Assembly (NCBI RefSeq): GCF_000373105.1
Contig: NZ_KB890425.1
Coordinates: 249,847-305,004, forward strand
DNA: 55,158 bases
Origin: Neolewinella persica DSM 23188
Lineage (GTDB): Bacteria > Bacteroidota > Bacteroidia > Chitinophagales > Saprospiraceae
Direction: 5' to 3'
Position numbers and translations under genes: made by a program. This document shows positions 1 through 55,158 of this stretch, in pieces. Numbering within the stretch: the first letter of the stretch is position 1; the number at the start of each line of letters is the position of its first letter. The notes under the pieces were generated by a model, which searched no databases, had not been told where the DNA came from, and was given only the letters and a program-made list of their open reading frames with translations.

Positions 1-1731
1 GGCACGGACCTGGACTACTTCGGCGAGATCTTCAACGCCGGCCGGACGACGGGCGACGTTGTTGTCCCCACGCCCTCGGTGAACGGTTGTGACTCGATGG
101 TGGCGGTAACTTTAACCTTCTTTGCACCTGCGTTCAGCGCCCTTGATACGATTATTTGCGCGGGCACCCAACTGAATTTCTTTGGAGAAATTTTTGATGG
201 AGGCCGGACGACGGGCGACGTTATTGTTCCTACCCCCTCGGTGAATGGATGTGATTCCACGGTAACGGTCAACCTTAGTTTTTTCCCACAGGCAGCTGGT
301 GTCATTGACACCACTATTTGTGCGGGAACTACATTTGATTATGCTGGACGAAGCTTTTCCACGGCAGTAAATGATGTACTGGTAACCATCCCTGAACCAA
401 CGGCAAACGGCTGTGACAGCATCGTTTCGGTTACGGTAAGGATTGAGCAGGTTCCAACGGTGACGCTTTCCGGAGACGGGATCGTTTGTGTTGGTGGAGA
501 ACTCGATATAACCCTGAGTTACGACGGCACGGGAACTGCGATGGTAGTCCTTAGCTCAGATCCGGGTGAAGTGATCAGTGTTCCTTCGGGGACGTTGACC
601 ATTCAGCGGATGATTGCTCCCGGAACCTTGGTTCGGATAAACTCCGCCACCAATGGAGGTAACTGTCCGCCAATAATCGGTGGAACCATAGCGGTGCAGG
701 AAACAGACTTGCGCGTTAGGATTGATGTTATGAGCGGTGACGGCGTATTTGCCGTTAGCTGTGCCGAAGGCAGCGACGGGGAAGTAATTGCTTTTGGAGA
801 AGGAGGAGCAGCACCCTATGCTTATAGTTGGAGTACGGGAGTAACCGGCCCCCGACTGGAAAGGCTGAGTGCCGGAAGGTACGCCGTTGTGGCTACGAGC
901 GCCCGGGGTTGTGAAGCAGAAGCACTGGTGGTATTGTCTTCTCCGGACGCTATGGTTGCGGCCATTGCAGAGGTGCCAGCTAACTGCCTCAATAATACTC
1001 CTTCGCTTACCATTCGGGACGTTCAGGGAGGTGTAGGCCCCTATTTGTACAGGACGTCAGCTAACGGTTCATTTCGACAAGTGCGGGCTTTTCCCGAAAC
1101 CTTCCCCGTTGAAGTTGGGCGTACGAACCTTCAGATAGAGGACGTAAATGGCTGCTTACTGGAAGAATCTTTCGACCTGGATGGTCCACCTACCAGTGAG
1201 GTGACGGTTTCTCCCGCCCGGTCCACCATCAGCCTGGGCGACAGTGTGGAGCTTCGAGTGATGACGGGACTGGATGTCAACGGTTTCCGCTTAAGCCCGG
1301 GCCCTGACTCATTGATTTTTGGTAGCAGCACCTTCGTTAAGCCATTGGAAACAACCAGCTACGATGTTTTTGTTCTTGATTCAGCAGGGTGCAGCGCATC
1401 TACGGAAGTAGAGGTAATTGTGCAGGCCTTTGTTCCCGTTTATTCTCCATCGGCTTTTTCTCCCAACGGTGATGGCAGAAACGACATGTTCCGGCTCTTT
1501 GCCCGCCCAACGGTGGTTAGTTTTCAAAACTTCCAAATCTTCAACCGGTGGGGCCACCTGGTTTATTTCCTGGATGGACCAATTGATCCCCAAGACACGA
1601 ATTGGGGCTGGGACGGCAGGGATGAACACGGAGAAATTCACGAACCGGCGGTCTACGTCTACAGTATTGAGGTGGAATTGGCGGATGGTCGGCTGGTTAC
1701 CATTAAATCGGATATGGTGTTGATGCGATGA
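1..1731 (+). CDS. T9SS type B surface protein, 3' part (5' end outside window)
   Basis: The frame is open from the first base, so the start lies upstream; 576 residues are visible. The N-terminal part has Cys-containing repeats of about 50 residues that run DTIICAGT, GRTTGDV, VPTPSVNGCDS and a hydrophobic strand. The first two are almost identical, the third is diverged. Two Ig-like segments follow. The last ~95 residues (from about base 1435) hold AFSPNGDGRND, FNRWGHLVY and WDGRDEHG, the pattern of the gliding-motility-associated (CHU_C) type B T9SS sorting domain. By family knowledge this means export across the outer membrane by T9SS and display or release at the cell surface. Adhesion is a guess from the repeats. 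It converges with the LamG gene downstream. Confidence 0.9.
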   Translation, partial: GTDLDYFGEIFNAGRTTGDVVVPTPSVNGCDSMVAVTLTFFAPAFSALDTIICAGTQLNFFGEIFDGGRTTGDVIVPTPSVNGCDSTVTVNLSFFPQAAGVIDTTICAGTTFDYAGRSFSTAVNDVLVTIPEPTANGCDSIVSVTVRIEQVPTVTLSGDGIVCVGGELDITLSYDGTGTAMVVLSSDPGEVISVPSGTLTIQRMIAPGTLVRINSATNGGNCPPIIGGTIAVQETDLRVRIDVMSGDGVFAVSCAEGSDGEVIAFGEGGAAPYAYSWSTGVTGPRLERLSAGRYAVVATSARGCEAEALVVLSSPDAMVAAIAEVPANCLNNTPSLTIRDVQGGVGPYLYRTSANGSFRQVRAFPETFPVEVGRTNLQIEDVNGCLLEESFDLDGPPTSEVTVSPARSTISLGDSVELRVMTGLDVNGFRLSPGPDSLIFGSSTFVKPLETTSYDVFVLDSAGCSASTEVEVIVQAFVPVYSPSAFSPNGDGRNDMFRLFARPTVVSFQNFQIFNRWGHLVYFLDGPIDPQDTNWGWDGRDEHGEIHEPAVYVYSIEVELADGRLVTIKSDMVLMR

Positions 1732-1912
1732 TTCGCTTCGCTCATGTTGCAGGAGTTGCAGGTTCGTTTCACTCACGTTGCAGCGTGTTGCACTCGTTTC
1801 TGCCGATGGTTTCACGGGTATGGATAGAGCGAGCTTCGTGGTGCTGTGGCTTACCGACGACCAAGGCCGCCAGGCCGATTACGGATAAAAGGAGCGGAGC
1901 TATTTTTCGAGA
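1732..1912. repeat. Intergenic segment with fragments of dispersed repeats
   Basis: Between two convergent genes. It contains TCGCTTCGCTCATG-like sequence near its start and TAAAAGGAGCGGAGC near base 1887. Both strings recur in the inverted-repeat element at 24521-24827. Short inverted words occur, such as GTTGCAGG and GTTGCAGCGTG. No gene is credible here. Confidence 0.4.
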
Positions 1913-3172
1913 CTATCGTAAGATCATCGCACTCCCACTCTCGACAAGTTCCCTGCCATTACAGTTAAATACGACCCGCCAGACGATGGGGCCGGGCTGA
2001 ACGGGGTCGCCTTTGAAGGTTCCATCCCAGCGGGCAAATGCATCGGCAGATTGAAACATTTGGGCGCCGTACCGGTCATAGATTTCGAAGCTGAGTAATT
2101 CAGGGATGGCGAAGGGGTTGGAAATACCAAAATTCTCGTTCGCCGTTGGGCCAATACCGTTAGGGGTGAAGGCTTTAGGTAGGAAAACCTGCCCGCAGTC
2201 GAGTGCAGAGGGGTCGATGACCTGAAGTACGAGGCTGTCGATGGCTGTACAGTTGCTTTCCATATCGCTGATGCGAACGAGGTAAGATTGTCGGCCGGCG
2301 TTAACCGGGGTGATTGTTGGCTCTGCGTCGGTCGGGTTAATGACGTCGGCTGGAGGCGTCCAATTGAAGGAGATGCCGCAATTGCTGTTGACTTCAACGT
2401 CTACGCTTTCCCCAAGGAATACGCGCTGGTTTTCTGTTAAGATCTGATCTGGAGAGGAGTAAAGACCCCGCACCTCGGACAGCCGCAGCGCCCGGTCGTA
2501 GACCCTGACTTCGTCGATAAGCCCGTCGAAGGGGATTTCTCCGATGCTCCGGCATACGGTGGAGCCGATTAGGAATTCGCCGTTATTTTCGACATCTACC
2601 CGGCTCGAGGTACGCGCTTCGCCGACTTCCTGGGCATTCAGAAATAATAGAACGCTGTTCTCATCCCGAACGATCACCAGGTGTTGCCAGCAACCTCCGT
2701 TATTGATGCGATGATCGATGCGGGCTTGCTGGTTATTCTGCTGCAGGATTACTGACACGGTACGGGTCAGTGGTGCGTAACGCACGGTGAAGAACTGCAG
2801 GTTGTTGCAGCTGGTATCCCGTTTGGACATCAGAAACTGAGTGCCGTTAACGCCCACTGGTTTGAAAGAGAAACTAATGGTAAAGTCTTCCGAGCCGAAC
2901 ACCCGATTAACGTTGTTGGTGTTCCCGCCAGCTACACGGAGAAAGTCATTACCTCCGTTTAGGATCAATGCATCCCCTTCTACGCCACATCCGAATTCAG
3001 GTACACCGCTTGCAATAGCGTTGTTGGCGCTGTCTCCGGTGGCGTCGGCGAAATCACCATCGAAGGTGTAGTGGGCCACCAGGTTCAGGGTGGTTGGGCC
3101 TGCTCCTTGTCCGAAAATTGCACCTGCGGCGGCGCCTGAAAAAATAAATAGTACCAGTAAAAAAGCTCTCAT
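1913..3172 (-). CDS. Secreted LamG-domain protein with T9SS type B sorting domain
   Basis: 419 residues from the ATG at 3172, chosen because MRAFLLVLFIFSGAAAG is a clean signal peptide; the 27 residues upstream in frame are polar and implausible. Residues ~30-220 resemble a concanavalin-like LamG fold (LVAHYTFDGDFAD, DGLIDEVRVYDRAL), typical of carbohydrate or matrix binding. An Ig-like/PKD-like segment (~240-320) follows. Residues ~328-419 carry FLPKAFTPNG, FEIYDRYGAQMF and WDGTFKG, the type B gliding C-terminal domain. The product is probably T9SS-exported and surface bound. A TACCTTTG box (3192-3199, minus) lies 20 bp upstream. The signal-peptide codons contain a copy of the dispersed GCACCTGCG motif (3120-3128). 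Confidence 0.88.
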   Translation of the reverse strand: MRAFLLVLFIFSGAAAGAIFGQGAGPTTLNLVAHYTFDGDFADATGDSANNAIASGVPEFGCGVEGDALILNGGNDFLRVAGGNTNNVNRVFGSEDFTISFSFKPVGVNGTQFLMSKRDTSCNNLQFFTVRYAPLTRTVSVILQQNNQQARIDHRINNGGCWQHLVIVRDENSVLLFLNAQEVGEARTSSRVDVENNGEFLIGSTVCRSIGEIPFDGLIDEVRVYDRALRLSEVRGLYSSPDQILTENQRVFLGESVDVEVNSNCGISFNWTPPADVINPTDAEPTITPVNAGRQSYLVRISDMESNCTAIDSLVLQVIDPSALDCGQVFLPKAFTPNGIGPTANENFGISNPFAIPELLSFEIYDRYGAQMFQSADAFARWDGTFKGDPVQPGPIVWRVVFNCNGRELVESGSAMILR

Positions 3173-5620: not shown

Positions 5621-6583
5621 TTAAAACTCTTTTGGTCGCATCCCTTGTTTAAACTTCTCTCCAAAGCCTGAATTGTTTGGGGAGTAGGAACCAATAATGG
5701 CTGGGTTGAATCCGTCGGCGGGAATATCTGCTTCCCGGCCTAAGGCCCAGGCAATTCCATTTAGGGTAAGTCGGCGCATATTGTCATTCTGCCAGTCAAA
5801 GGGATGACCAAGGGTGGTGAAGAACACCCGGGCGCCTTTGTAGTCATTAGTCCAGGCAACGGGGTTTGTTTTGGGGAACTGATCAAGCCGCCCCCCCTCT
5901 TCGTGCTTGGAGCGCAACGAGGTGCCGAGTAGCAAGGGGCTTGTTTTGGGATTGATTTTCCAATCGCCACCGTCGACGTGATACAGCCAGGAGTAAGCAT
6001 CAAAGGGCTGAACGCCATTGAGGATAGGGCTATGGGTATTTTCGACTAAAGCGACGCTGGTCAGCGGGTCATGCCCGTCATCAAAATGCCCGTGGTGGGT
6101 GATCCATTGTTGCCCAAAAACAGCAGTAGGCCAATCGTTGTTAAGGTGCTGCCGGAGCGAGTCGTCTTTGTACATGAAAGCATGGGTGGCGGTCCGGAAG
6201 CCAACCATGGGTTTACCACTTTCGGCAAAGTCCAAAATGTATTTTGCCTGTTCGTCCGGCAGCTTCCGCCAGCGGGTAAACAGGACCATCATATCAGCTT
6301 TTCCAAGCGCTTCAAGGCCGGCAATATTATCGATCACGTTCGGGTTGACGATGCCGTTCGAATCTAGTGCGAAGAGTACTTCGGTCGTTGCTCCAAGCTC
6401 ACGTTCAACCATCCTTGCGAGCATCGGCATAGATTCTTCAGAACGGTATTCCTCATCTCCGGTTACGAAAACAATGTGCGGCTGTTTAGTAGCATCTTCA
6501 GGCGCGGTCGCAGGTGCAGTGGAAGAGGTGCAAGAGCAGAGTAAGGCAAAGCAGCAGGCAAACAATAGACTAAGTTGACGCAT
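5621..6583 (-). CDS. ThuA-domain lipoprotein
   Basis: 320 residues with an N-terminal signal and lipobox-like LCSC (Cys18), so probably a lipoprotein. After a short Ala/Pro/Thr linker comes a ThuA-like fold (class I glutamine-amidotransferase-like): HIVFVTGDEEYRSEES, a strand ADMMVLFTRWRKLPDEQ, then GKPMVGFRTATHAF, WITHHGHFDD and GARVFFTTLGHPFDW near the end. ThuA proteins are linked to sugar (trehalose or glucoside) use but the reaction is unsettled. Divergent from the LytTR gene (51 bp between them). A large SGNH/propeller/cytochrome protein lies 2 kb away, a companion often seen with ThuA domains. The linker codons contain a copy of the dispersed motif (6509-6517). Confidence 0.85.
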   Translation of the reverse strand: MRQLSLLFACCFALLCSCTSSTAPATAPEDATKQPHIVFVTGDEEYRSEESMPMLARMVERELGATTEVLFALDSNGIVNPNVIDNIAGLEALGKADMMVLFTRWRKLPDEQAKYILDFAESGKPMVGFRTATHAFMYKDDSLRQHLNNDWPTAVFGQQWITHHGHFDDGHDPLTSVALVENTHSPILNGVQPFDAYSWLYHVDGGDWKINPKTSPLLLGTSLRSKHEEGGRLDQFPKTNPVAWTNDYKGARVFFTTLGHPFDWQNDNMRRLTLNGIAWALGREADIPADGFNPAIIGSYSPNNSGFGEKFKQGMRPKEF

Positions 6584-8713: not shown

Positions 8714-11700
8714 TTACTTCTTCCTGTAAGCAGGTCCGGTAAGTTCTTCGGCTTTGTAATAGCCTTTCTTCCCGGTTTCCTTTATCTCCGCCCGAACACT
8801 GGTAATAAAATCTTCACTGATAACTGAAGACCGGTTGCCAAAGGCATTGCGCACGTAAGTCATCACGTCGGCAATTTGTTTGTCGTTGAGGAGGTTTTCG
8901 TATGGCGTCATTGGTACCTGCCCGGGATACTCCCTCCCCTTTACGCTTATTGGCCCGATGAGGCCTTTCAGCAGGATCTTGGCAAGGACTTTGGGGTCTC
9001 CAGTAACCCACTCCGAGTCTTTCAACGGCGGGAAGCCGGACGCCGTAAGACCTTTACCGGTTTTCTGGTGGCAAGTTCGGCAAGAGCCGTCTTCATGATA
9101 AATGTCCCAACCGGCAGAGAATTGAGCGAGGTCATCTCCTTTCAGGTGGTTAACGATGATTTCTGAACCCTTACTGATTTTCAGTCCTTCACCCGTCAGG
9201 TGCTTGGGGGCAGCTTCTACAATACTTTTCATCCAATCTTCTACGGGTTGCTGTTCGATCGTGCCCAGGACCATGCGGCCAGCGTCTTCAGGCAGCCAGG
9301 TTCCGGCAACCAGTGCCATCATCCGCACGCGGGGATGCGGGTCAGCCGCAGCGATGTTGAGTAAAGCAGCTTGTTTGTTGATTTGGTGACCGCCATAGCG
9401 TAACGCCTGTACGGCTGCGGCCCGGACCCGGAAGTCCTTCGCCTGCAGAGATTTTTCCATCAACTCCTGGTCAAGGGCATTCTGCCCCCAGGTGACCCAG
9501 AGGCCTTCCAGGAGGCGTTGCTCATAATCTTCGGCGTTCGGGTCACGATCGGAAACCCATGCTTTTACTGCCGGTAAAACTTCCGCTGCAGGCCGCCCCC
9601 GCAATTCACGATGCGTCCTGTAACGGCTCCGGTATTCCGGAAGTTCCAGGTTTTGCAGCAGGGTGGCGATGGAGGCTCCTTCTATATCCGCCGGTGTTAC
9701 CAGCGGGCGAGATGGGTAGGTGATCCGGTAGACCTTCCCGTGCACATGATCCCGTAACGGGTCCCGTGCATTATGCTGCATATGGCCAACCAGAACGTTG
9801 TGCCAGTCGATGAAGTAGAGGCTGCCATCGGGAGCAAATTCCATATCGACGGGACGGAAATTAGGGTCAGTACCCGTAACCAGGTCTTGCCGCCATTTTG
9901 TGGTGAATTCTCCGTTGTCAGTATCGATCATCTGATGCTGCTTCATACCAAGGAAGCCGATGGTGTTATTGATCAGCATGTCTCCCTGCACGTCGTCAGG
10001 AAAGTGGCGGCTGGAAACAAATTCCAGACCGGAAGTGGGCCGGACCATGTGGTCTTCCTCGATCAACTGACTGCCAAGCGGCGCCTGAACACCATAGCGG
10101 TTACGAATGGTACTAGGTAACATCCAGCGAACAGAAGGCCCCGATGTATGGGCAAAAAATGGTTGTCCCCACCGGTCGAAGGCAATACCCCATGGGTTCG
10201 GAATGGGGATCTGTGCCGTCCGTTCCAGATGCCGGCGTTGCGGGCTGTAACGGTAAAAGCCGCCGTTGGTGCCGCGGACTGTACCATAGGGGGTTTCTAC
10301 GCTGGTGTGAAGGAACAGCCCTTCTCCCATGTAGATGGCACCGGAGGGATCTGTTGTGAATGCGCTGGCCGTATGATGAGTGTCATGATCGTCGAAACCG
10401 GAGAGGATGATTTCCGCTTCATCGTATTTGTCATCTCCATCGGTGTCTTTTAACAATTTAAGGTGGGTACCCTGAGATACGTAAACCCCTTCGGGAGCAA
10501 ACTCAAAGCCAACGGGTACGTGGAGATCGTCCGCAAACACAGTAGATTTATCTGCTTTACCGTCGTTGTCGGTGTCTTCGAGGATAAGTAGTTTGTCATT
10601 GGGGCGGGCGTCGCCCGGTTTGTAGTGCGGGTAAGTTGGCATGACAGCGACCCACAGCCGGCCTTTGTTGTCAAAGCTCATTTGGCAAGGGTTGGCCAGG
10701 TCGGGAAATTCGCGCTCGGAGGCGAAGAGTTCTAATTTGTAGCCATCGGCAACTGTGAAGGTATTGGCCAGTTCGTCACCGTAGAGGTAGTCGACGGTAC
10801 CGTCTTCTTTAGTCAATGAGTAGTTGGTTTCGACGGGAGGAAGCTGATAAGTGTTAGCGTCAGCGGCTGGAATATCCATCTCTTCTCCACGCAGCGCCAT
10901 CCAGATGGCCGTGTCCCGGATCATGGTCATCTCCCGAATTTTTTTAATCTCCATTGGGTAGTTGTCCGGACCGAATGGATTGTGCCTGCGGCCATAAACG
11001 TGGACACCGTTCGGGATCTTGAAGTCGTTGTGCCATAACCAATTTTTATCCATAACCAGTTCTTGCACCTGCGTCCGCGCCGCCTCCTTTGCTTTACCGC
11101 CAAACAACCGATCAGCAAGCCAGGGAGCCAGCTTCAGGTAAGACTCGCTGGTGAGTTGAACACCGTCGGTCGTCCCTTCGGTAGCACCCCTAAACCACTC
11201 GGTTGTGGGCGCATAAAGATCGATGAATGGGATATTGGCCGCCGCCGCGACTTCACGCATAGCAGCAGCATACAACTTCAAATTGTCATTTTCTATGGAG
11301 CCATCGGGCACATCCATCACGGCGGATTTGTCCTGGAAGGCTGTGGGCGACATCAGCGCGATTTCCGGCGCCGTCTCTCCATTATAGTCCGAGAAATTAG
11401 TATAGTCTATCCAGGCTTTTAACTCAGCTTTAAAATTGTCGACTCCCTCCGGTCCATTAAAGGATTCACTATATCCGAAGAAGGCGAGCACGACATCTGC
11501 TTCCAGCGTTGTCAGCCACTCATCGGGCGTTGGGAATTCTCCGCGCGGATCAGAATCCCGGGAGAGTAAGCTGTTTTCGTAAAACTTCTCCGCACCGGGG
11601 AAGGCCCATGCATCCATCCGGGCTGAATGCGGCTGAAACCCCGGGGTGTTACCACCGTCACACATGTTCCGAATAAACAGTTGATGCTCGGGAAAACGCA

Positions 11701-11934: not shown

Positions 11935-13110
11935 TCAAGGCCGGGCCACCAACTCCTCCACCAACTTCTCAATCATCGCCATACACCCCTCCAGCTGCTC
12001 CACCGTGCAAAACTCATTCGCGCGGTGCGCCTGCGCAATGTCGCCGGGCCCACAAATGACGGATGGGAAGCCAGCATTAGAGAATTGGCCAGCCTCGGCA
12101 GCGTAAGACACCGTACCCGTATCCTGAACGCCGGAGATCTGTTTGACCAGGTCTACGATTGGGGCGTCCTCGGGGGTGTCCAACGGAGGGACGGGCGGAT
12201 GCATCGCGACGTGCTCGATAGCGAAACCGGGGAAGACCTCGCGTCGCAGGGCTACCCGTTCCTCACAATGGGATTGGAAGGCATCGATGATGTCCTGGGC
12301 TTCATCCATGGGGATGTTGCGGAAGTCCCAGTCGAAGCTACACTCGTTGGCAATGATGTTGAAGGCGGAGCCGCCTTTGATGGTGCCGACGTGGATACTG
12401 GTGTGGTTGGGGTGGAAGCGATCATCCGTATGCCCCGCGGCAATCAGGGCGTCCATTTTGTCTTCGAGCCAGACGATAAGGCGGGCGGCTTCGTGGATGG
12501 CGTCAACCTCTTGTTTGATCCGGCTACTGTGGCCCTGGCTACCGCGTACCGTGGTGGTGTAGACCATGATGCCTTTTTGCCCAACCATCGGGCGGAGCAT
12601 GCTCGGTTCGCCAATGATGGCGCCGGCAGGCTGTTCGTCGTAGTGGTCGCGTATGGCCCCGGCAAGTAAGTCTCCGGCCATACAGCCGATTTCTTCGTCG
12701 AAGCTGAAGGCAAAGTAAACGGGTTTTTTCAGGCGCGAACGCAGGAGCAAAGGAACGCTTGCCAAACAGCAGGCGAGGAACCCCTTCATGTCGCAGCTTC
12801 CCCTGCCGTATAACGTATCCCCCTTCAGCGTAAGTTTGAACGGATCGGTATCCCAGGGTTGGCCGACCGTTGGGACGACGTCCATATGCCCACTCAGGAT
12901 GATACCGCCGTCTACCGCCGGCCCGATCCGGCAATGGATGGCCTCCTTGGTCCCGGTTTCGTCGGGGACGGTCTGGTACGCCACGCCGTAACCATCAAGA
13001 TAGTCTTTGATCCAGTTGGCAATGCTGTGATTCCCTTCTCCGCCGAGGACGGGGAAGGCGACCAATTCGGTCAGAATTTGGGTGAAGGTTAGGGGCTGGG
13101 TTGCAGTCAT
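11935..13110 (-). CDS. argE: M20 peptidase, acetylornithine deacetylase type (ArgE)
   Basis: 391 residues from the ATG at 13110; the further in-frame start at 13236 would overlap the TonB-like gene and adds a His-rich nonsense leader. The M20 metal motifs are present: LSGHMDVVPT (His75, Asp77), YGRGSCDMKG (Asp107) and FSFDEEIGCM (Glu139/140, catalytic and metal ligand). The reaction expected is removal of the acetyl group from N-acetylornithine in arginine synthesis, in the cytosol. No other arginine genes are nearby, so a related deacylase remains possible. A TACCTTCG box abuts the start codon upstream. Confidence 0.82.
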   Translation of the reverse strand: MTATQPLTFTQILTELVAFPVLGGEGNHSIANWIKDYLDGYGVAYQTVPDETGTKEAIHCRIGPAVDGGIILSGHMDVVPTVGQPWDTDPFKLTLKGDTLYGRGSCDMKGFLACCLASVPLLLRSRLKKPVYFAFSFDEEIGCMAGDLLAGAIRDHYDEQPAGAIIGEPSMLRPMVGQKGIMVYTTTVRGSQGHSSRIKQEVDAIHEAARLIVWLEDKMDALIAAGHTDDRFHPNHTSIHVGTIKGGSAFNIIANECSFDWDFRNIPMDEAQDIIDAFQSHCEERVALRREVFPGFAIEHVAMHPPVPPLDTPEDAPIVDLVKQISGVQDTGTVSYAAEAGQFSNAGFPSVICGPGDIAQAHRANEFCTVEQLEGCMAMIEKLVEELVARP

Positions 13111-15132: not shown

Positions 15133-15160
15133 ACCTTGCACCTGCGGCCGCGCCAAGTGA
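15133..15160 (+). repeat. Dispersed motif copy, intergenic
   Basis: Contains TTGCACCTGCGGCCGCGCC, a full match to the split consensus GCACCTGCG-N4-CGCC, preceded by CCCTCCACC as in the copy near 28363. Confidence 0.7.
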
Positions 15161-21142: not shown

Positions 21143-22798
21143 ATGAAGCCAACCTCCCGTCCAATTAATCTGGCCTTTGGCACACTGCTGCTGGCCGCCG
21201 GAGTAACCTACCTGGGCTTCGGTGTAGATCGGATGGATTTTACCTCGTTGTTTAGCTCCTTTCTGGTCGCTTTCGGCGGGTACCTGTTGTTAGTCCGAAA
21301 GCCCGATCGGGGCAACATGAAATTACTTGTCGGACTGGGCATTATCTTGCGGGTGGCGCTGGTTTTTGCCTTCCCCTTGCTCAGCGATGATGTTTACCGC
21401 TTCATCTGGGATGGTCATTTAGTAGCGGCGGGCCTCAATCCCTTCGCGGAATTGCCGGCCTTTTATCTGGAAACAGGAAACGCCGTACCTGGACTATCGC
21501 AGGAGCTGTTCGATAAGCTAAACTCCCCCGATTATTACACGATTTACCCGCCGGTGGCACAGGGGGTTTTTACGGTGGCGGCCTGGCTGAGCCCGGGCAG
21601 TTGGTACGGTGCGGCGGTGGTGATGAAGCTGTTTTTGCTGGCTTGTGAGCTGGGGAGTTTGTGGGTGATGTGGCAACTTTTTAAAGGAGTAAGGGGTGAA
21701 AAGGAGGAAGGGAAGAAAGGCCAGTCTTCAACTCCTTTTTCCCTTTCCTTCCTTTTTTCTTTCAAGGGGGCGGGGCCGCAGGTGCAGGAAACGGTTAAGG
21801 AGCAAGGGCCGTCCGGACAACCAGATAACCCGACACCCCGACACCCCGACACCCCGACACCTCGAAAACTCGAAAACTCGACACCCCGACTACTACTCTA
21901 CTGGCTCAACCCCCTGATCCTGGTCGAAATCATGGGCAACCTCCACTTCGAAGGCGCCATGGTATTCTTTCTGTTACTGGCCTATTACCTGCTGCAACGA
22001 AGCAAGTGGGTGGCCGCAGGTGCTGCCATGGCCGCCTCGGTAGCGAGCAAGTTGCTGCCGTTGATGTTGTTACCGTTGTTGATTCGTCGATTGGTACATT
22101 CTGTAAAAAAATCTCCCTTGCCTAAAAATACTAATGCTTGGGCCCCCCCTCTCCGGGGGAGAGGGGCTGGGGGAGAGGTGCCAAGGGAGGGGCGTTTTCT
22201 AAACAGAGAGTACCTGTTGTCAATAATTAAGAGTGCCCGCCCATTCTGGATTTTCTCCTTCGCCTTCGGGGTAAGTTGTCTCCTGTTTTTTGCGCCGCTC
22301 TTATTGTCCGAAGGCTTCCTGTCGGGCTTCAGCAGCAGCCTGGAGTTGTACCAGAAGAAATTTGAATTCAACGCCAGCCTGTACTACCTGGCGAGGGCCT
22401 ATGGGTACCTGGATGTGGGGTGGAACCAGATTGCTGTATTCGGCCCTTTGTTGGCGCGGACATCGGCCGTAGGTATCCTGTTGTTGGCCTTGCTGGACCG
22501 GCGATCAGACTGGGCCTCCCTACCCGTCGGGTGGCTGTGGGCTTTCGTGCTGTACCTTCTCTGCGCTACTACCGTTCACCCCTGGTACCTGAGTGTACCG
22601 ATAATGCTGAGCTGTTTCACCAGTTGGCGTTTCCCCTTGGTATGGTCTTTTCTGATCATGCTGACCTACACCAACTATCTCACCGAGCCTTACCACGAGA
22701 ACCTCTGGTTGGTAGCCATGGAATACCTGGTGGTCGCGGGGTTTGCATTTTGGGAATGGCGACGGAGATCTATATCGGGTAAAATGGTGATCACGTAG
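21143..22798 (+). CDS. GT87-like membrane mannosyltransferase with two repeat-derived insertions
   Basis: 551 residues, about ten membrane spans. VYRFIWDGHLVAAGLNPF near residue 85 and YYTIYPPVAQGVFTVAAW near 130 are typical of polyprenol-phosphate-mannose-dependent transferases (GT87/MptA-like); LLYWLNPLILVEIMGNLHFEG follows. The role would be transfer of mannose or another sugar from a lipid carrier outside the inner membrane. Residues ~182-250 (Lys/Glu then PTPRHPDTPTPRKLENSTPR) and ~320-354 (APPLRGRGAGGEV) are low-complexity loops whose DNA matches intergenic repeats elsewhere in the window. They break conserved membrane blocks but keep the frame. Coupled to the upstream gene. Confidence 0.82.
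   Translation: MKPTSRPINLAFGTLLLAAGVTYLGFGVDRMDFTSLFSSFLVAFGGYLLLVRKPDRGNMKLLVGLGIILRVALVFAFPLLSDDVYRFIWDGHLVAAGLNPFAELPAFYLETGNAVPGLSQELFDKLNSPDYYTIYPPVAQGVFTVAAWLSPGSWYGAAVVMKLFLLACELGSLWVMWQLFKGVRGEKEEGKKGQSSTPFSLSFLFSFKGAGPQVQETVKEQGPSGQPDNPTPRHPDTPTPRKLENSTPRLLLYWLNPLILVEIMGNLHFEGAMVFFLLLAYYLLQRSKWVAAGAAMAASVASKLLPLMLLPLLIRRLVHSVKKSPLPKNTNAWAPPLRGRGAGGEVPREGRFLNREYLLSIIKSARPFWIFSFAFGVSCLLFFAPLLLSEGFLSGFSSSLELYQKKFEFNASLYYLARAYGYLDVGWNQIAVFGPLLARTSAVGILLLALLDRRSDWASLPVGWLWAFVLYLLCATTVHPWYLSVPIMLSCFTSWRFPLVWSFLIMLTYTNYLTEPYHENLWLVAMEYLVVAGFAFWEWRRRSISGKMVIT
21690..21795 (-). repeat. Composite intergenic-type repeat inside the mannosyltransferase gene
   Basis: Read on the minus strand it gives a GCACCTGCG motif (21777-21785 on plus) followed by CCCCGCC, a purine tract GAAAGAAAAAAGGAAGG, a short middle, then a pyrimidine tract. 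The same order of parts occurs in the intergenic element at 30318-30445. Here it is read in frame as part of the protein. Confidence 0.6.
21828..21893 (+). repeat. Short tandem repeat (CGACACCCC unit) in coding DNA
   Basis: About six copies of the 9-bp unit CGACACCCC or CGAAAACTC in a row, translated as alternating PTPRHPDTPTPR-like peptide. A related run of GACAACCC/CGACAACC words lies just upstream of the RND permease start (49676-49709). Confidence 0.65.
22143..22178 (+). repeat. G-rich palindromic repeat inside the mannosyltransferase gene
   Basis: Stem CCCCTCTCC (22146-22154), loop GGG, GGAGAGGGG (22158-22166), then CTGGGGGAGAGG. The reverse complement of 33649-33680 has the same sequence with few changes. 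In this gene it encodes PPLRGRGAGGE. Confidence 0.7.
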
Positions 22799-26086: not shown

Positions 26087-28114
<2,028 letters not shown>

Positions 28115-30317: not shown

Positions 30318-30445
30318 GTTTTGCACCTGTGGCCGCGCTCTGATGAAAAGGAAGAATGGGGAAAATGAAAGGAAAAAGGAGGGCGCGCGAAACTTTTCTT
30401 TGATACACACTTCCTTTCCTTCTTTTCTTAATGCCTAAATGTTCT
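30318..30445 (+). repeat. Composite element: dispersed motif plus purine and pyrimidine tracts
   Basis: TTTTGCACCTGTGGCCGCGC (one change in the left half, one in the right) is followed by a purine tract (GGAAGAATGGGGAAAATG), GCGCGCG, then pyrimidine-rich TTCCTTTCCTTCTTTTC. The purine and pyrimidine tracts are complementary enough to fold. The same plan is found inside the mannosyltransferase gene at 21690-21795. Confidence 0.6.
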
Positions 30446-36337: not shown

Positions 36338-36366
36338 CCTTTGCACCTGCGGCCGCGCCCAAAAAA
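36338..36366 (+). repeat. Dispersed motif copy, intergenic
   Basis: CTTTGCACCTGCGGCCGCGC followed by CCAAAAAA, the most complete copy of the consensus, in the gap upstream of the receptor gene. Confidence 0.7.
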
Positions 36367-39583: not shown

Positions 39584-41202
39584 CAGGAGGTTTTTTCACG
39601 TTGCCAGTCGGACCATTCGTCGAGGAAATAATCCAGCAATACCGGCCGGTCAAGCCGGTTTGGCAGTAGGTTGATGTCGGTAGGTTGACGCAAGTCGGGG
39701 GGAAAGTAAAACATGTCGGGCAGGGCTTCAGGTTCAAGGAACCTGCGGGGTACATCGGTTCTTAGCCCAGGCTTGTGTCCGGTGCCGCCGGCCATGATGA
39801 AGCCCCAGACCCCAAAACTGGGCACCAATACTTTATAAGGCCGTATATGGTTGAAACCAGTGGCCGCCAGCGTTTCCCGAATGCACCAGAAGGTATTCCG
39901 GGTATGAAACGGACTGGTTGCCTGGGTGGCAAATACCCCGTTTACCGCCAGCCTGGCTTTTACCATTCCGAAGAACCAGGTGCTGTAAAGACGGGCCACG
40001 CTTTCACTGCTGGGGTCCGGTAAGTCGGCGATGATCAGGTCGTATTGGTTGGTGTCGTTACGGAGGAAAACGGCGGCGTCAACGGCCAATGCCTGCACCT
40101 TGCTGCTTTCCATTGCCCCTGCGTTCAGCGCCCTGATGCCCCCGTGCCGGGAAGCGAGCGCAAAGACCCGCTCGTCTAGATCTACAACCGTTAATTGCTC
40201 CAACTCCGGAAGTTTGAGCAGCTCGCGGGCCAGTAGTCCTTCACCACCTCCCAGAATAAGCGCCCGCTTTACGGCCGGCACCGAGGCGGCGGGAATAAGC
40301 GCGAGCGCCTCATGGTAGCGGTACTCGTCGCGCGAAGAAAATTGGATGACCCGGTTGAGGTAGAGGCGCAGGTCGTCCTGATTTTGCGTTAGGGTGATCT
40401 GTTGATAGGGAGAGCGCTCCTGGTAAATTACCCGGTGTGGATAGGCAGAGGCTTCCCAGTGTGCCAAAAAGGGTTTGGCCCAGGCCAGCAGCAGCCCGAA
40501 AGCCATTAATCCGAGGGCGGTATAGGCATATATCCGTCGTCGTTGCCGTCGTTCTAATTGATCCCGGAAAAACCAGCAAACCCCGAATCCGAGCAAGAGA
40601 TTTACCGCTCCAAAGAGGAGGCTGGAGCTGTACAAACCCACGAAAGGAAGGAGTAAAAAGGGGAAAAGCAGGGTGGCGGCCAGTGCGCCGATGTAGTCGA
40701 AGCCCAGAACATCGGCCAGGGCATCATTTTGCGGCGCGTACTTCTTCATGACCCGGGCCAGCAGTGGGATCTCCAGCCCCGTCAGCAGCCCGATGGCGAA
40801 TACAAGCCCCAGCATGGTGAACTGATACTGCGTATTATTTTGGTGTTGGAAAAGAAAGTACAGCAGGGGGACAGAAAGGCCTCCCAGTAACCCCAACAGC
40901 ATTTCCGTCCGAATGAACGCTTCCAGCTCCCCCTTCTCAATGTACTTGGTGAGAAAAGATCCTACACCCATCGCGAACATATAAATGCCAATGGTTAGGC
41001 TGAATTGCTTGACGCTGTCACCCAGGAAATAGCTGCTCGTGGTACTGATCAGCAACTCATAGACAATGCTGCAAAGGCCAGCCAGGAAGACCGCGGCAAT
41101 GAGGAAGGTTTTTTCGGGAAGCTTGATGATAAGGGATGATTTTTCTTCAGGGCGTGGGCGCAGGTGCAAAGTTACGGATACAGAAGCAAGGAGACCGGCC
41201 AA
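39583..41202 (-). CDS. speE: Polyamine aminopropyltransferase with N-terminal membrane domain
   Basis: Up to 539 residues. Seven or so membrane spans come first (TFLIAAVFLAGLCSIVYELLI, LTIGIYMFAMGVGSFLTKYIE, LTGLEIPLLARVMKKY), then a spermidine-synthase SAM fold (ALILGGGEGLLARELLKL, VVDLDERVFALA, DLIIADLPDPSSESVARLYS). It transfers aminopropyl from decarboxylated SAM to putrescine. No ATG starts the frame: TTG at 41202 or at 41169 must be used, the latter lying within a dispersed-motif copy. The family's usual N-terminus begins about 10-25 residues before TFLIAAVF, favouring TTG 41169. Forms an operon with speH. Confidence 0.9.
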   Translation of the reverse strand: MAGLLASVSVTLHLRPRPEEKSSLIIKLPEKTFLIAAVFLAGLCSIVYELLISTTSSYFLGDSVKQFSLTIGIYMFAMGVGSFLTKYIEKGELEAFIRTEMLLGLLGGLSVPLLYFLFQHQNNTQYQFTMLGLVFAIGLLTGLEIPLLARVMKKYAPQNDALADVLGFDYIGALAATLLFPFLLLPFVGLYSSSLLFGAVNLLLGFGVCWFFRDQLERRQRRRIYAYTALGLMAFGLLLAWAKPFLAHWEASAYPHRVIYQERSPYQQITLTQNQDDLRLYLNRVIQFSSRDEYRYHEALALIPAASVPAVKRALILGGGEGLLARELLKLPELEQLTVVDLDERVFALASRHGGIRALNAGAMESSKVQALAVDAAVFLRNDTNQYDLIIADLPDPSSESVARLYSTWFFGMVKARLAVNGVFATQATSPFHTRNTFWCIRETLAATGFNHIRPYKVLVPSFGVWGFIMAGGTGHKPGLRTDVPRRFLEPEALPDMFYFPPDLRQPTDINLLPNRLDRPVLLDYFLDEWSDWQREKTS

Positions 41203-46296: not shown

Positions 46297-46326
46297 CTTC
46301 TTTGCACCTGCGGCAGCGCCCAAATA
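46297..46326 (+). repeat. Dispersed motif copy, intergenic
   Basis: TTCTTTGCACCTGCGGCAGC followed by GCCCAAATAA, in the gap after the pentapeptide gene; GCACCTGCG-N4-CGCC is intact. Confidence 0.7.
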
Positions 46327-47195: not shown

Positions 47196-48554
47196 ATGCT
47201 GAACACTGTTCATAAAATTATCGCTGTATACTGTCTGTTGCTGCTACCGGTTTTACTTTCCGGTCAAGCGCAGGTGCTGGAGCAATACATTGCTCAGGCA
47301 CTGCAGGAAAACCCGACGCTACTGGCCAGTAAGTTGGTGGAAAATGAAAAACTGTTGGCAGTAGAGCTGGCTGCAGCCAATAAACGTGGCCAGGTTGATT
47401 TGAAATCAGATTACATCTTGTCGGTTGGTGGCCGTGGCATCGACTTCCCGATCGGTGATTTGCTGAATCCGACTTACGCCACCTTGAATCAGCTGACGGG
47501 TACTGAGCAGTTTCCGACCAACCTGGAAAACGTTAATACCCGTTTCCTCCCAAGTAATTTTCACGATACCAGAATTGAAGCGCGCTACCCCTTGCTGCAG
47601 CCGGTGATTGGCCGGGAAGTGGCGCTGCGGGAAGCGCAGGTCCTTGAAGCTCGTGCGGCCACCGAAGTGTTAGAAAACGAAGTGCGCCGGCAAGTGCGCG
47701 ACCTTTACTTCGCCTGGCTGCAAAGCCTGGAAGGGCAGCAGATTGTAGACAGTTCCCGACTGGTCCTACAGGAATTACTTCGGGTAAATCAGGTGCTGGT
47801 GGATAACGACAAACGCACGGCTGATGCGGTTTACCGCACGCAGGCTGAGCTGGCCACCCTTGACGGGCAATCGGCGATCCTTCGCCAGCAGGAACTGCTG
47901 GCCCAGGCCGCCCTCAATCGCCTGCTGGCCCGGGACCTGACGGAGCCGTTGGAGCAAATGGCCCTGACGGATTTACTTACGCCAATGGCCTCCTTTACCC
48001 TCCTTAGCACCCGCGCCCGCGCCCAAAGGCCCGAACTGAAACAACTGGACGCCGGCACCGAAAGCCTCGTTCGTCTCGAAGCACTTCAGGATGCCGGACG
48101 TAAGCCCACCCTGGGAGCCTTCCTCAATGCCGGTGCTCAGGGCTTCTTCTCCGGCGACCTGAGTGACCACCCCTACGCCAGCGGCGGACTCGCCTTCAGC
48201 CTGAACCTCTACGACGGCAAGAAACGTGATCTTCGCCAGCAACAAACCCTGGTGCAGCGAGCGCAGCTGGGGAAACGCCGGGACGATGCCGCCAGAGGCA
48301 TAGAATTGCAAGTCTGGCAAGCCACCCAAAGGATCACCAGTGAGCAGGCGCAACTGGCCGCTGCCCAAGCCCGCGAACAGGCCGCCGCTTCCTCCGCCCG
48401 CATCGTCGCGGCTCGCTACCGCAATCAGAATGCCCTGCTCATCGAGTACCTCGACGCCCAAAACCAGGTTACTACCGCCCGGCTGGAAGCCAACCTCGCC
48501 CGTTTCCGGCTTCATCAGGCCTATGCGGCCCTGCAAGCTGCCCTCGGCGAATAA
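47196..48554 (+). CDS. TolC-type outer-membrane efflux protein
   Basis: 452 residues; signal peptide ~1-26 ends LLSGQAQ. Two OEP-like repeats with long helices: LEARAATEVLENEVRRQVRDLYFAWLQ, NQVLVDNDKRTADAVYRTQAEL and ARIVAARYRNQNALLIEYLDAQNQV. Forms the trimeric outer-membrane channel for the pump encoded downstream. The start ATG (47196) is four bases before the second operator, so the operator lies within codons 2-6 (LNTVH). A motif-like GCACCCGCGCCCGCGCCC sits at 48007-48024. Confidence 0.9.
   Translation: MLNTVHKIIAVYCLLLLPVLLSGQAQVLEQYIAQALQENPTLLASKLVENEKLLAVELAAANKRGQVDLKSDYILSVGGRGIDFPIGDLLNPTYATLNQLTGTEQFPTNLENVNTRFLPSNFHDTRIEARYPLLQPVIGREVALREAQVLEARAATEVLENEVRRQVRDLYFAWLQSLEGQQIVDSSRLVLQELLRVNQVLVDNDKRTADAVYRTQAELATLDGQSAILRQQELLAQAALNRLLARDLTEPLEQMALTDLLTPMASFTLLSTRARAQRPELKQLDAGTESLVRLEALQDAGRKPTLGAFLNAGAQGFFSGDLSDHPYASGGLAFSLNLYDGKKRDLRQQQTLVQRAQLGKRRDDAARGIELQVWQATQRITSEQAQLAAAQAREQAAASSARIVAARYRNQNALLIEYLDAQNQVTTARLEANLARFRLHQAYAALQAALGE
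47200..47212. promoter_or_regulatory. TetR operator, copy 2, inside the tolC start
   Basis: TGAACACTGTTCA, identical to 46500-46512 and exactly 700 bp downstream. It overlaps the first codons of tolC, where it would block transcription entering the pump genes. Confidence 0.7.
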
Positions 48555-49711: not shown

Positions 49712-52700
49712 ATGCAACTTCCCAATTGGTCCGTCAAAAACGGCGCTTTCGTCCTGGTACTTACCCTGATCGCTACGGCAATAGGATTACTTTCCTATCA
49801 GGGAATGCCTCGCTCAGAGGATCCAAGCATCAATATCCCAACTTATCTGGTAACCATTGTCTATCCCGGCACGAGCCCGGAGGATATGGAAGAGCTGGTC
49901 GTTGACCCGCTGGAGGATGTAATTGAAGACATCGATGACATTGACTTTGTCGTAGCGGAAATAGCTGAAGGGATTGCCTCCCTTCGAATTGAAGCGAGTT
50001 ACGCCCTGGATGATTGGGACGAGAAAGGGGTGGAGATTGAACGGGAACTGAATACCATCCGGGATCAACTACCCGCTGGCATCGTTTATTACGATTTTGA
50101 GCAATTCAAGCAGGAGGATCGGGCGGTGGTCCACCAAATAGCCCTAACGTCACCGGCGGCTCCATTTCATGAGTTGGAGACCATTGCGGAGTCTGTGGAA
50201 GAACGCCTGGAGGGGATTGCGGGCGTCAAAGGCGTTAAGTTAGATGCCTACCCGGAACGACAAGTGAGGGTGAGCCTGGATTTTCAGCGATGTGTTGCTC
50301 AAAACATCCCACCGGCAAGTGTGCTGGGGATATTGCAACAGAACAACGCCAATATTCCGGGTGGAGACCTGGGCGCAGCTACGCAAAACTTCAGCATCAA
50401 AACCAGCGGCAGCTATGAAGGGATGGCGGAATTACGGAATACAGTAGTTGGCAGTAACGCGGGTAAGCTGGTGTATTTGCAAGACATCGCCGACGTTCGC
50501 TACGCTTACGAAGATGAGCGCTGGCGCGCCCGTTACAACGGCGAAAGAGCGCTGCTGCTCTCCGTACTGCTGGAAGGGGAAAGTAACATCGTGGAGGTGA
50601 ATGCCGAAATCCACGAAGCACTGGAACTGGCCCGGCGGGAACTTCCTCCTACTGTCCGCCTGCAAACGGCTTTTGAGCAGGCGCCGGCAGTGAGTGCCCG
50701 GATCTCTGACTTCTTCGGGAACCTTCTGCAGGGCGTTGTTCTGGTTGGCATCATCATTCTACTCTTCCTGGGCTTCCGGGCATCGGTTATCGTGATGATC
50801 GTTATCCCGCTTTGTATCCTCATTTCGCTGGCTTTGCTGAACGCCAACGGCTTTGCGTTGCAACAAATCAGTATCGCCGCACTCGTTATTGCGCTTGGGT
50901 TGCTGGTGGATAATGGCATTGTGGTGATCGAGAACATAAATCGCTATTTGCGGGAGGGGCTCTCGCCGGCGGAAGCTGCGGCGAAGGGTACCGGCGAAGT
51001 CGGCTGGGCCATCGTTAGCTCTACGGTAACCACCCTGCTGGCCTTCTTTCCCCTGACGCAGTTGGGGGGAGGTCCGGGAGAATTTCTTAAATCTTTGCCG
51101 GTAACGGTCATGCTCACCCTGGGTATTTCCCTTTTGCTGGCCCTTACTTTCTCTCCGCTTGTGGCTTCCAAATTGCTGCGCTACCGGGAGAACCGGAAGT
51201 CACCTTTGCCACAACGGGCGCTGGAATATTTCGTGGCCAATGTTTACAGGCCTGCCCTGGACTGGAGCCTTCGCCGTGGGGCAATCATCATCCTGGTAGC
51301 CATTGCCATGTTGGTGGGCGCTATTTCACTCTTTCCAAGTATTGGCGTCAGCTTTTTTCCCACGGCAGATAAACCATTGTTGCTGATCGATATCGAAACA
51401 CCTCCGGGAAGTGATTTACAGGCTACGGATGATGCCGTCCGATTTGTGGAGTCCATTGTGGATTCGATGGCATACGTAAAGGATTATACGGCCAACATCG
51501 GCCACGGAAATCCCTTCATTTACTACAATCGGATTCCGCGCAACTACAAAAAGAATGTAGGACAGGTTCTCGTCAATTTTACCCACTGGGACCCGGAAGG
51601 ATTCTATGGGACCTTACGACATTTGCGAAATATTTTGGGCGCGTACGCAGGTGCAGAAATCACTTTTCAGGAGCTGAAGAACGGTGCCCCCGTCAAAGCC
51701 CCGCTGGAATTTCGCATCAGTGGTCCCGATGAAGCAAAAGTGGCAGAATTGGTGGAAGAGGCCGCCGGTATTATGGCCGCAACGCCAGGGGTGATTAACC
51801 TGAAAAATGAGTTGCAGGACCGGAAAACAGACCTGAAGCTAGACCTGAACCGCGACAAAGCCGGGCTCATCGGACTGTCTACACTAGATTTCGACCAGGT
51901 CGTACTGGCCAGCCTCTCCGGCCTGACCTTTGACCAGGTCAGTTTTGCCGACGGTAAAGAATACCCGTTGAATGTTCGTATCGCCTTCGACGATGACGCA
52001 CCAGGCATAGAAGACTTTAACCGGGTTTACTTTACCACCGCAACGGGAGCGCAGGTACCATTGCAGCAGGTAGCCGACGTCTCGTTCGTCAACAGCCCCG
52101 CTACCCTCAGCCACTACAACCTGGAACGCATCGCCAGCCTGACGGCAGACGTTGCCAATGCCGACCAAACGGTTCCCATTACCGAAGAAATCATCGCTTC
52201 TCTGGAGGAAATGACCTGGCCCGCTGGCTACAAATTTACCGTAGGCGGGGAGTACGAAGACCAACAGGCGACCTTCGGAACACTTGGCATCATCCTGGTC
52301 CTGGCCATGTTGGCCATCTTCGCCGTTTTGGTCCTCCAGTTTAAATCCTTATTACAACCGCTGATCGTTTTCTCCGCCATCCCTCTGGCGGTGACGGGAA
52401 GCTTCGTTGCGCTTTGGCTGACGGGCTGGTCTTTCAGCTTCTTCGCCTTCGTTGGCTTCATCTCCCTGATCGGTATCGTGGTCAATAACTCCATCATCAT
52501 GGTGGACTATATGAATCAACTTCGAGCCGAAGGAATGGCCCTTGGCGATGCCATCCGATTGGGCAGCGAGCGCCGTTTCGTGCCCATCGTACTGACAACC
52601 CTAACCACCATCCTTGGCCTGCTTCCGCTGACGGCACAGGCAACGAGTCTTTGGTCTCCCCTTGGCTGGACGATCATCGGGGGAATGATCAGTTCAACCT

Positions 52701-53294: not shown

Positions 53295-53362
53295 AGAACC
53301 CGATGCTCGTCGGGAACTATGTGCATCTTTTCTGTTCTCCAACCTTCAGGCTGGACGAACGA

Positions 53363-55158
53363 TTAATGTTTTACAAACCGCAATGCCTCATTTTTAATTT
53401 GTACAACGTAGACGCCAGCCGGTAAGGCTTGAACGCTAAGGGGTTCAAACTCCGCGAGGTTACGTTGAAGTACCCTACGCCCTTGCTGGTCAATGACACG
53501 AACCGGGCCGCCAGCAAAACCCTTGATGCGCAGCGCATCCACCGTTGGGTTTGGGTAGAGGGAGAGGGTGGGGATTCCGGAGATGTTGACCTCGCGAATT
53601 TTACTAAGCGATTCGGTACCGTCGTAGTCCACCTGCCGGAGGCGATAGTAATTAAGCCCAACGGCCGGTGTCTTGTGGAGGAACCCATAAGCCTGCTCCG
53701 CTGTACTGTTCCCTGCACCTGCGACCTCGCCCAAAACCTCGAACGTACGACCATCAGTGCTGTGCGTAACCTCAAAGTGGCTGTTGTCGGTTTCAATGGT
53801 GGTCTGCCAGTCAAGTTGTACCCGTTGCTTATCCACTTCCCGGGCGTTAAATTCGGTCAGCTCGACGGGTAGAATGGCGTTGTTAGCAAAAAGGTAGAAG
53901 GTAGAGAACGAGCCGGTGAAAAACTCGAAGTAGGCGTCTTCTCCTGCGCATCCCGTGCCATTAAAAGACACGTTCATCTCCCTGGCATTCGTGCCCGAAT
54001 AGCCGGTTCCACAATCTGTATCGCTGGTCTTCACGATGGTGAACGTCGAGGAATTAGAGCCTGGGGAAGCAGCCATAAGCGCACCCAGCTCTGCTTCGGT
54101 GTAGTAAAGGCGAACGTAGATTGGCTCATTATTTGGCTGTACCTGGTTTCCTCCGGGGCCAATCATTTTCAGGTCGATCCGCTTGCTTAGGTAATGCAAC
54201 CCGTTCTCCTCTTCGGTCATTTCCACCGACTTGTAAATATTCGCTATCACCGAAGTAATATTCGTGTTGTTCCCGATAATTACCTGGGCGATCATCTTAC
54301 CGTTTGGTGCCGTGATGTCGTACCAGGCCTGGCCGCCGGCAACGGCAGCACTAGTAGAAACACAAGTTCCGTTAGGGCCTTCGTAAATGGCATCATCCAC
54401 CACAACGGTTACCTCGGAAGTACAGGTGGCAGAATTGCCGCGAAGGTCTCCGACGGTAAGCGTCACGATATTGACCCCTTCGTCTGCACAGGTGAAGGAG
54501 CTAATGTCAATGCCTCCACCCGCTAGTTGTCCGCAACCATCAAAGCTACCGTCATCGATCTGGCCGGCGTTGATGTTGACGGTTTGGCCATCTCTCAGGC
54601 TGACGGTACGATCCTGGCAAAGAGCGGTAGGTGCGGCGAGATCTGAAATATTGCAATCTACGATGACCTGATAGGTGACGGTTCTGGTGATCACGTTTCC
54701 ACCCATATCGGTAATGGTAAGGGTCTGGCTCCAATCGTATGTACCATTAGCACCTGGCGCTACCCAGTGACGGGAGGAAATCAGGGTTTGGCCGGGCTCC
54801 TGATCGAAGCCGGTGTTGGCGATTTGGAAACCATCCTGATCAACTACGTTGATGAGGTCGTATTCGCCGAGCCCGGTATTCGTCCAGGCAAAACGCGTGG
54901 TCAGGGTATCTCCGGCACCTACGGTTACTACTTGACCATTTGCCGCACCATAAGGCACGGGACAGTTGGGGGCAATAGGCTGGTTGGGGCAAACATCGTT
55001 TTGATTGGCTACACCGAATTCAATGTCTACCATCGGTGCCTGAACGATGACGATGTAGGTGACGGTAGCCGTGACGATGTTGCCGCCAAAATCGGTGACG
55101 GTCAGCGTCTGACTGAAGTTATAAGTACCCGGCAGGGCCGGTGCTTCCCAGTGGCGGG
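53363..55158 (-). CDS. Large T9SS type A surface protein, 3' part (5' end outside window)
   Basis: About 598 residues are visible; the frame is still open at the window edge (55156). The N-terminal part has repeats of ~80 residues (SRHWVAPGANGTYDWSQTL, TITDMGGNVITRTVTYQV and an upstream copy RHWEAPALPGTYNFSQTL). HYR-like beta repeats follow (TVGDLRGNSATCTSEVTVVV). Then a unique domain with six or so Cys and PVELTEFNAREVDKQRVQLDW, an Ig-like module seen in Bacteroidota surface proteins. The C-terminal LYPNPTVDALRIKG ... PAGVYVVQI is the type A T9SS sorting signal. Exported and anchored or released by T9SS. Confidence 0.9.
   Translation of the reverse strand, partial: RHWEAPALPGTYNFSQTLTVTDFGGNIVTATVTYIVIVQAPMVDIEFGVANQNDVCPNQPIAPNCPVPYGAANGQVVTVGAGDTLTTRFAWTNTGLGEYDLINVVDQDGFQIANTGFDQEPGQTLISSRHWVAPGANGTYDWSQTLTITDMGGNVITRTVTYQVIVDCNISDLAAPTALCQDRTVSLRDGQTVNINAGQIDDGSFDGCGQLAGGGIDISSFTCADEGVNIVTLTVGDLRGNSATCTSEVTVVVDDAIYEGPNGTCVSTSAAVAGGQAWYDITAPNGKMIAQVIIGNNTNITSVIANIYKSVEMTEEENGLHYLSKRIDLKMIGPGGNQVQPNNEPIYVRLYYTEAELGALMAASPGSNSSTFTIVKTSDTDCGTGYSGTNAREMNVSFNGTGCAGEDAYFEFFTGSFSTFYLFANNAILPVELTEFNAREVDKQRVQLDWQTTIETDNSHFEVTHSTDGRTFEVLGEVAGAGNSTAEQAYGFLHKTPAVGLNYYRLRQVDYDGTESLSKIREVNISGIPTLSLYPNPTVDALRIKGFAGGPVRVIDQQGRRVLQRNLAEFEPLSVQALPAGVYVVQIKNEALRFVKH

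Follow-up and report, generated by a model that had tools for sequence, protein, structure and literature searches.

A dispersed polar signal in Neolewinella persica and its relatives: a candidate self-recognition tag for DNA uptake

What maintains one short word, scattered within and between genes, along a bacterial chromosome? The question is raised by a 55,158-nt stretch of the Neolewinella persica DSM 23188 genome (contig NZ_KB890425.1, positions 249,847 to 305,004; the whole stretch is hereafter the window). A sequence-only reading of this DNA had recorded 14 exact occurrences of GCACCTGCG on the two strands, against about 0.4 expected by chance, and had offered a miniature mobile repeat or a genome-wide signal (uptake, Chi-like or segregation site) in explanation. 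All 14 occurrences are present, and 100 dinucleotide shuffles of the window give a mean of 0.38 and a maximum of 2. Here we propose that the repeat is probably a self-recognition tag for DNA uptake, a reading based on comparisons of sequence to which we assign a probability of about 0.6. Such a tag would be unexpected in this host, given that the pilus parts of known tag-readers have no convincing match in it. Passages of PMC7811141 describe short uptake sequences in competent members of the Pasteurellaceae and Neisseriaceae.

Abundance, anatomy and arrangement of the signal

The split pattern GCACCTGCGN4CGCC occurs 1,241 times in the 7.08-Mb genome (616 copies on the forward and 625 on the reverse strand), and its reversed control is absent from both strands; as in uptake sequences, a short motif stands far above chance on both strands. 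A 52-nt weight matrix trained on exact copies finds 148 copies (score above 14) in 455 kb of the same genome, a density of about 1 per 3 kb that extrapolates to about 2,300 sites genome-wide. The consensus is strong and near misses are few: 91 exact, 46 one-mismatch and 33 two-mismatch copies were counted, versus 0, 1 and 18 in one shuffle. The largest motif-free gap in one 360-kb stretch is 12 kb. In the window the matrix recovers 15 copies, among them one at 12732 that had been overlooked. CGCC follows GCACCTGCG by exactly four bases in 11 of the 14 exact window copies rather than in the 12 first counted, since at 124 the spacer is five bases long; the copies at 22015 and 47269 lack CGCC at that distance. 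Of five near copies proposed earlier, those at 23110, 30323 (given as 30322) and 48007 were recovered, and those at 33811 and 40115 were dropped, as neither lies within two mismatches.

The GCACCTGCG word makes up the core of a signal that is polar and about 30-45 nt long. Among 91 exact copies from the 455 kb, the conserved region extends from about -24 to +22. Its upstream part is pyrimidine-rich and carries a TTGCTC-like block, a CC at -9/-8, and pyrimidines with a T abutting the core; the core reads GCACCTGCGkCCgCGCC and is followed by a C and an A-rich tail. Adjacent matrix columns covary at the TTGCTC-like block, which we read as a shift in its position by a base or two. A structured RNA was considered and set aside, as no Rfam family reached its threshold in the window.

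The two strands are near-equally represented in each of six 60-kb bins of the 360-kb stretch, which is about 1/20 of the genome, and they are interleaved over 300 kb of one contig of a relative, G014 (52 and 53 copies by matrix). The replichore strand bias of Chi- or KOPS-type sites was not seen over those 360 kb, and together with the balanced genome-wide counts this lack of polarity speaks against the Chi-like and segregation sub-types suggested from the window; the broader suggestion of a genome-wide signal is supported, the uptake type being the sub-type that fits best. Once copies less than 400 bp apart had been merged, three of four genomes showed a spacing more regular than random, with a coefficient of variation (CV) of 0.55 in N. 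persica versus a null of 0.86, 0.62 in G014 and 0.59 in G010; the value of 0.73 in G001 was not significant, 14% of simulations being as low.

Close pairs (less than 350 bp apart) have an order of their own. In samples of the four genomes, 38 of 47 pairs were divergent (-+), the individual samples giving 20/25, 11/13, 4/6 and 3/3, and only 2 of the 47 lay on the same strand. Core to core, the divergent pairs of N. persica and G014 span 61-252 bp. These pairs may reflect a reader that engages two tags at once. A hairpin or terminator was considered and rejected: the consensus strands reach -3.9 and -8.2 kcal/mol (values without a shuffle control), and of 29 divergent pairs, 13 have their cores 61-95 bp from each other and the remainder are wider.

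By gene calls from a simple in-house predictor, 69 of the 148 copies overlap coding sequence, 39 of them in sense and 30 in antisense orientation, and the other 79 lie between genes. Given a coding fraction of about 84%, coding copies are under-represented. Copies nevertheless occur inside housekeeping genes on either strand, including those for HisS, MtaB, AckA and GatA. Of the sense copies in frame 1, 12 of 16 lie in the first 100 bases of predicted genes, where its translation can resemble a signal peptide, for example LLLSLLCTCDRAQ, and often ends in A-Q; here the tag may double as coding sequence for a secretion signal. Orientation relative to gene starts shows no preference (50 copies towards, 53 away), with broad distances. 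Among the matches listed for viral contigs, all but one contig had a single match.

Origin in place, codon choice and dialects

Did the signal arrive as an inserted element, or did it arise in sequence that was already there? The no-insertion test has been applied to the uptake signal sequence (USS) of Haemophilus, where it showed that USS are not insertions, as set out in passages of PMC1626085. Of the 69 coding copies, 8 were set against their counterparts in relatives, and an insertion of element size (about 15 codons) was seen in none of them. In these eight the signal appears as substitution in pre-existing sequence, as in uptake sequences, and the clean gap at orthologous sites that would mark a mobile repeat was not seen for them. 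The site in mtaB (TIGR01579) is gap-free in all 30 aligned rows, from 40 genomes matched, and the exact core is present in 13 of 19 Lewinella and in none of 11 rows from other genera. For HisS and AckA, no gap interrupts the core codons in either of the two solved relatives displayed per protein; for HisS, one of these has a four-residue gap a few residues downstream and the other has a gap of one residue upstream. The window copy at 48007 is gap-free in G007, where the same core stands at the same codons; the copy at 51638 has gap-free counterparts with one-mismatch cores in G007 and G018 and an imperfect counterpart at the same coordinate in G019; and the copy at 53715 has a gap-free counterpart with a one-mismatch core in G018.

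Some comparisons are less clean. For the copy at 48007, the alignment with G018 has balanced 3-base gaps and that with G015 has 8 gap positions; the copy at 51638 shows 1-2-base gaps against G015, which itself lacks the motif. The loop that contains a sulfatase copy has a gap of 4-5 residues. The gatA copies of Lewinella are imperfect, with one extra base in the core; the solved relatives are 1-2 residues shorter at the site, and rows from other genera vary between four residues shorter and one residue longer. None of these small insertions or deletions is of element size. The GatA match of G011 (G011:C2:157718-159055) contains a stop codon, possibly a sequencing or assembly error.

The mtaB site, picked since N. 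persica carries the motif there, also allowed codon choice to be examined. The test concerns this one gene and the 15 Lewinella that have the relevant residues; 22 of the 30 MtaB rows were used, seven having been excluded beforehand (four Lewinella without the residues and three outgroups). Five invariant residues under the motif have a mean codon identity of 0.83 (0.54-1.00), versus 0.55 for 214 other invariant residues, and none of 206 windows of equal size outside the motif is as conserved. The codons under the motif are conserved to an unusual degree, a constraint at the level of DNA.

The signal is specific to the genus and exists in dialects. GCACCTGCGN4CGCC occurs 2 to 1,184 times per genome in 20 members of the same genus and 0-3 times per genome in 99 members of other genera; the corresponding counts of the reversed control are 0-3 and 0-2. 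Since reversed controls reach 0-3, G001 (2 copies) and G010 (4) are at or near background. Each has a word of its own. In G001 this is TTTTACCTGCGCtCCGcCGCC, and TACCTGCGCNCCGNCGC occurs 204 + 223 = 427 times in that genome, 18 times in its sister G006 and 0-4 times in the other 19. In G010 it is aaCATTGCTACTTTGnnAGCC, and TTGCTACTTTGNNAG occurs 238 + 272 = 510 times, at most once in other Lewinella and at most 3 times in the other genera searched. The dialects are alike in polarity and strand balance, and their density is 0.20-0.35 per kb. Related but distinct dialects in related species are thus found, as among uptake sequences; in our reading the words appear to share a skeleton, in which a T/C-rich or T-rich approach leads to a split core that an A-rich tail follows. 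In a tree of MtaB and GatA, G010 branches at the base of the Lewinella sampled and G001 is placed next to G006, and from this position the spelling of G001 most likely changed recently.

A k-mer count in four other genera (80-100 kb each, small samples) found no comparable word. Other repeated words were seen in passing. A dispersed word built on AGGTTGAGGCTTTTTAAG occurs in G004 (G004:C1:500001-600000), its 10-mers appearing 10-15 times per 100 kb, and TTAAGTTTAAG with overlapping 10-mers occurs 12-14 times in 100 kb of G023, a genome of another genus (G023:C4:1-100000).

The uptake reading and its rivals

We favor uptake because density, origin by substitution, codon constraint, equal strands, even spacing and dialects occur together, a combination that would not be expected of mobile elements, Chi/KOPS sites or promoters. 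Tags would build up as tagged DNA is preferentially taken up and recombined. In the mechanism we envisage, a cell-surface receptor would bind the signal of about 30-45 nt, the bound DNA would pass through ComEC to DprA and on to RecA-dependent recombination, and uptake bias (molecular drive) would maintain the tags in the population. Since the pilus parts lack a convincing match, the outer-membrane step would proceed by something other than a type IV pilus. A bolder version, which we advance tentatively and at slightly less than even odds, is that this would be the first DNA self-recognition code beyond Pasteurellaceae and Neisseriaceae, with a long oriented tag, a grammar of divergent pairs, switching dialects and a pilus-independent outer-membrane reader of Bacteroidota type. 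If true, a tag in Bacteroidota without detectable pili would give a handle on DNA import across the outer membrane, with the motif usable as bait for the receptor; it would mean an independent origin of bacterial recognition of 'self'; and it would allow general traits of such codes (density, even spacing, dialect change, loss) to be separated from traits of pilus-based uptake.

The search of the open-licence PubMed Central (PMC) literature returned nothing on interspersed repeats in Saprospiraceae or on an uptake signal sequence in Bacteroidota. Related evidence comes from PMC7965970, passages of which propose that Flavobacterium johnsoniae has weak homologues, at about 24% identity, of an uptake system of pilus type. 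The paper also offers a precedent within Bacteroidota: in transformation of Riemerella columbina the organism's own DNA competes, an equal amount of foreign DNA does not, and a tenfold amount of foreign DNA reduces it; there the authors list only A/T-rich candidate words, which they left untested.

Several observations weigh against uptake. Neither a secretin nor the pilin N-terminal signature was found in any of the 21 genomes. The GspE/PilB/PilT family matches in 20 of 21, only over 24-84 of its 370 positions; in 11 of the 21 the score only just attains the 24.9-bit cut-off (25.5 at most with neighbours), and the one matching frame examined is ClpB-like. Type IV pilus machinery, which to our knowledge is present in all species with proven tags, seems absent from these 21 genomes. 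The inner-membrane channel ComEC is present in 21 of 21 and the recombination loader DprA in 20 of 21, the missing one being a 55%-complete genome, and this counts for uptake; both also match in most control genomes and hence are not specific, and such widespread proteins do not by themselves show competence. The open-licence PMC literature yielded nothing on natural competence in Lewinella. Four relatives (G004, G006, G012 and G016) have few copies, and 100 kb each of G004, G006 and G012 gave no clear dialect, save an unrelated-looking word in G004. Copy density is 1.68/kb between divergent genes and 0.69/kb between convergent genes, an excess also expected from a regulatory or structural role. 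Furthermore, TTATTAGTC lies within 30 nt downstream of 4 of the 148 copies versus 0.02 expected, with a total of 6 occurrences on both strands of the 455 kb; the four tailed copies, that at 28355 in the window and three in G000:C1 of N. persica, are all intergenic. Flank similarity between copies also has an upper tail slightly heavier than that of column-shuffled copies. These two patterns hint that some copies share more than chance would allow, or that there is a second form of the tail; the sharing of TTATTAGTC could come from a second accepted tail or from local copying of a few intergenic copies. Finally, divergent pairs of 61-252 bp are not described in the Haemophilus passages of PMC7811141.

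The chief rival to uptake is a chromosome-organising protein, a cytoplasmic factor that would bind oriented sites, join divergent pairs, and fold or partition the chromosome. Even spacing and the strong preference for divergent pairing are what this explanation would predict, and we take it seriously while judging it unlikely. It is at odds with the complete change of spelling between species of one genus, a change of a kind that segregation signals are not known to undergo, and with the lack of strand polarity over 360 kb. Furthermore, the roughly 2,300 extrapolated sites far exceed the numbers of parS or matS sites. A regulatory element (a promoter, or a site for a global regulator or an attenuator) that is also present in coding DNA would account for the intergenic enrichment and for the higher density between divergent genes; copies inside housekeeping genes on either strand and the lack of orientation towards gene starts make this role quite improbable.

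An iterated word kept by a DNA-methylation or repair system, comparable to HIP1 of cyanobacteria, would likewise reach many copies without a proven function, as passages of PMC4390886 recount for HIP1. HIP1 is there a short palindrome, whereas the present signal is long and polar, is split and ends in an A-rich tail, and differs in dialect between species, and we regard this explanation as improbable. A mobile miniature repeat of the repetitive extragenic palindromic (REP), miniature inverted-repeat transposable element (MITE) or Rickettsia-palindrome type, copied into and between genes, would fit the high copy number and strong consensus, the inverted copies in pairs, the four intergenic copies with the rare 9-nt tail TTATTAGTC, and the slight excess of flank similarity. 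For the coding copies tested, a mobile element was rejected by the gap analysis, the mobile repeat suggested from the window having no support there: all eight lack the element-length insertion against relatives. In addition, the matrix positions most strongly associated with each other are neighbours, and to the eye the stretches that separate paired copies look unrelated. Mobility is thus a very improbable explanation of the signal.

Copies in the window and comparison with known systems

The copies of the proposed uptake tag in the window occupy varied settings. Between genes, exact cores lie at 6501..6517 (-), at 46304..46320 (+), at 36343..36359 (+), where divergent genes stand on either side, and at 28355..28371 (-), the copy with the TTATTAGTC tail, upstream of uvrB (26087-28114(-)); a degenerate intergenic copy at 30323..30339 (+) has two core mismatches. 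Antisense to genes are the exact 17-nt core at 3120..3136 (+), in a signal-peptide-like stretch close to the beginning of gene 1913-3172(-), and exact cores at 11065..11081 (+) in gene 8714-11866(-) (DUF7133, cytochrome c), 15138..15154 (+) in the acyltransferase gene 13745-15301(-), 21769..21785 (-) in gene 21143-22798(+), 51638..51654 (-) in the RND transporter gene 49712-52753(+), and 53715..53731 (+) in gene 53363-55033(-). The exact core at 41151..41167 (-) falls at the predicted 5' end of gene 39583-41202(-). Copies with one core mismatch lie in sense at 12732..12748 (-) in the M20 peptidase gene 11935-13110(-) and at 48007..48023 (+) in the outer-membrane efflux gene 47196-48554(+), and a third, at 23110..23126 (+), lies in the signal-peptide-like start of gene 23067-24512(+), LLFLTFLCTSVRAQ. 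The off-register copy at 124..141 (+), GCACCTGCG with a five-base spacer and CGCC, stands outside the 15 matrix copies.

Note that the outer-membrane efflux and AcrB-type RND transporter genes (47196-52753 of the window) share a strand and contain one copy of the signal each. An acetate kinase and a phosphate propanoyltransferase domain are fused in one reading frame at L040:13089-14903(-). In the N. persica genome (G000:C1:1-200000), two further over-represented words, built on TTGTCGGG and ATTCTCGA, are self-overlapping and look like short tandem arrays.

How does the signal compare with known systems? REP, MITE and Rickettsia palindromic elements are also short and dispersed, sometimes paired and inside genes, and they insert; the eight coding copies tested here, in contrast, show no insertion. 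The DNA uptake sequence (DUS) of Neisseriaceae is a 10-12-mer, whereas the present signal spans about 30-45 nt. As here, DUS reach very high copy numbers and form species dialects on a shared skeleton, according to passages of PMC3630211. Those passages also describe DUS as read by the pilin ComP, whereas no pilus was found here, and count 1,294 copies in overlapping dyad pairs in Simonsiella (S. muelleri), whereas the pairs here stand apart. HIP1 of cyanobacteria is, like the present signal, an iterated genome-wide word of unproven function; passages of PMC4390886 present it as a palindromic 8-mer linked to methyltransferases, unlike the polar, split word with dialects found here.

The USS of Haemophilus and other Pasteurellaceae differ in several respects. 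Their hosts belong to a different phylum, and in the present genomes neither a secretin nor a pilin signature was found, nor any convincing pilus ATPase. In passages of PMC7811141, USS occur at about 1 per 1 kb, compared with about 1 per 3 kb here, and the Haemophilus pairs described there are centred within 14 bp (69 -/+ and 40 +/-), compared with divergent pairs of 61-252 bp here. The likenesses extend to origin as well as distribution: in passages of PMC1626085, USS lie both within and between genes (65% of them in genes) and arise by substitution rather than insertion. As far as the sources consulted describe them, USS also combine a core with conserved flanking segments and exist in versions specific to subclades, as the signal of Lewinella does in its own dialects.

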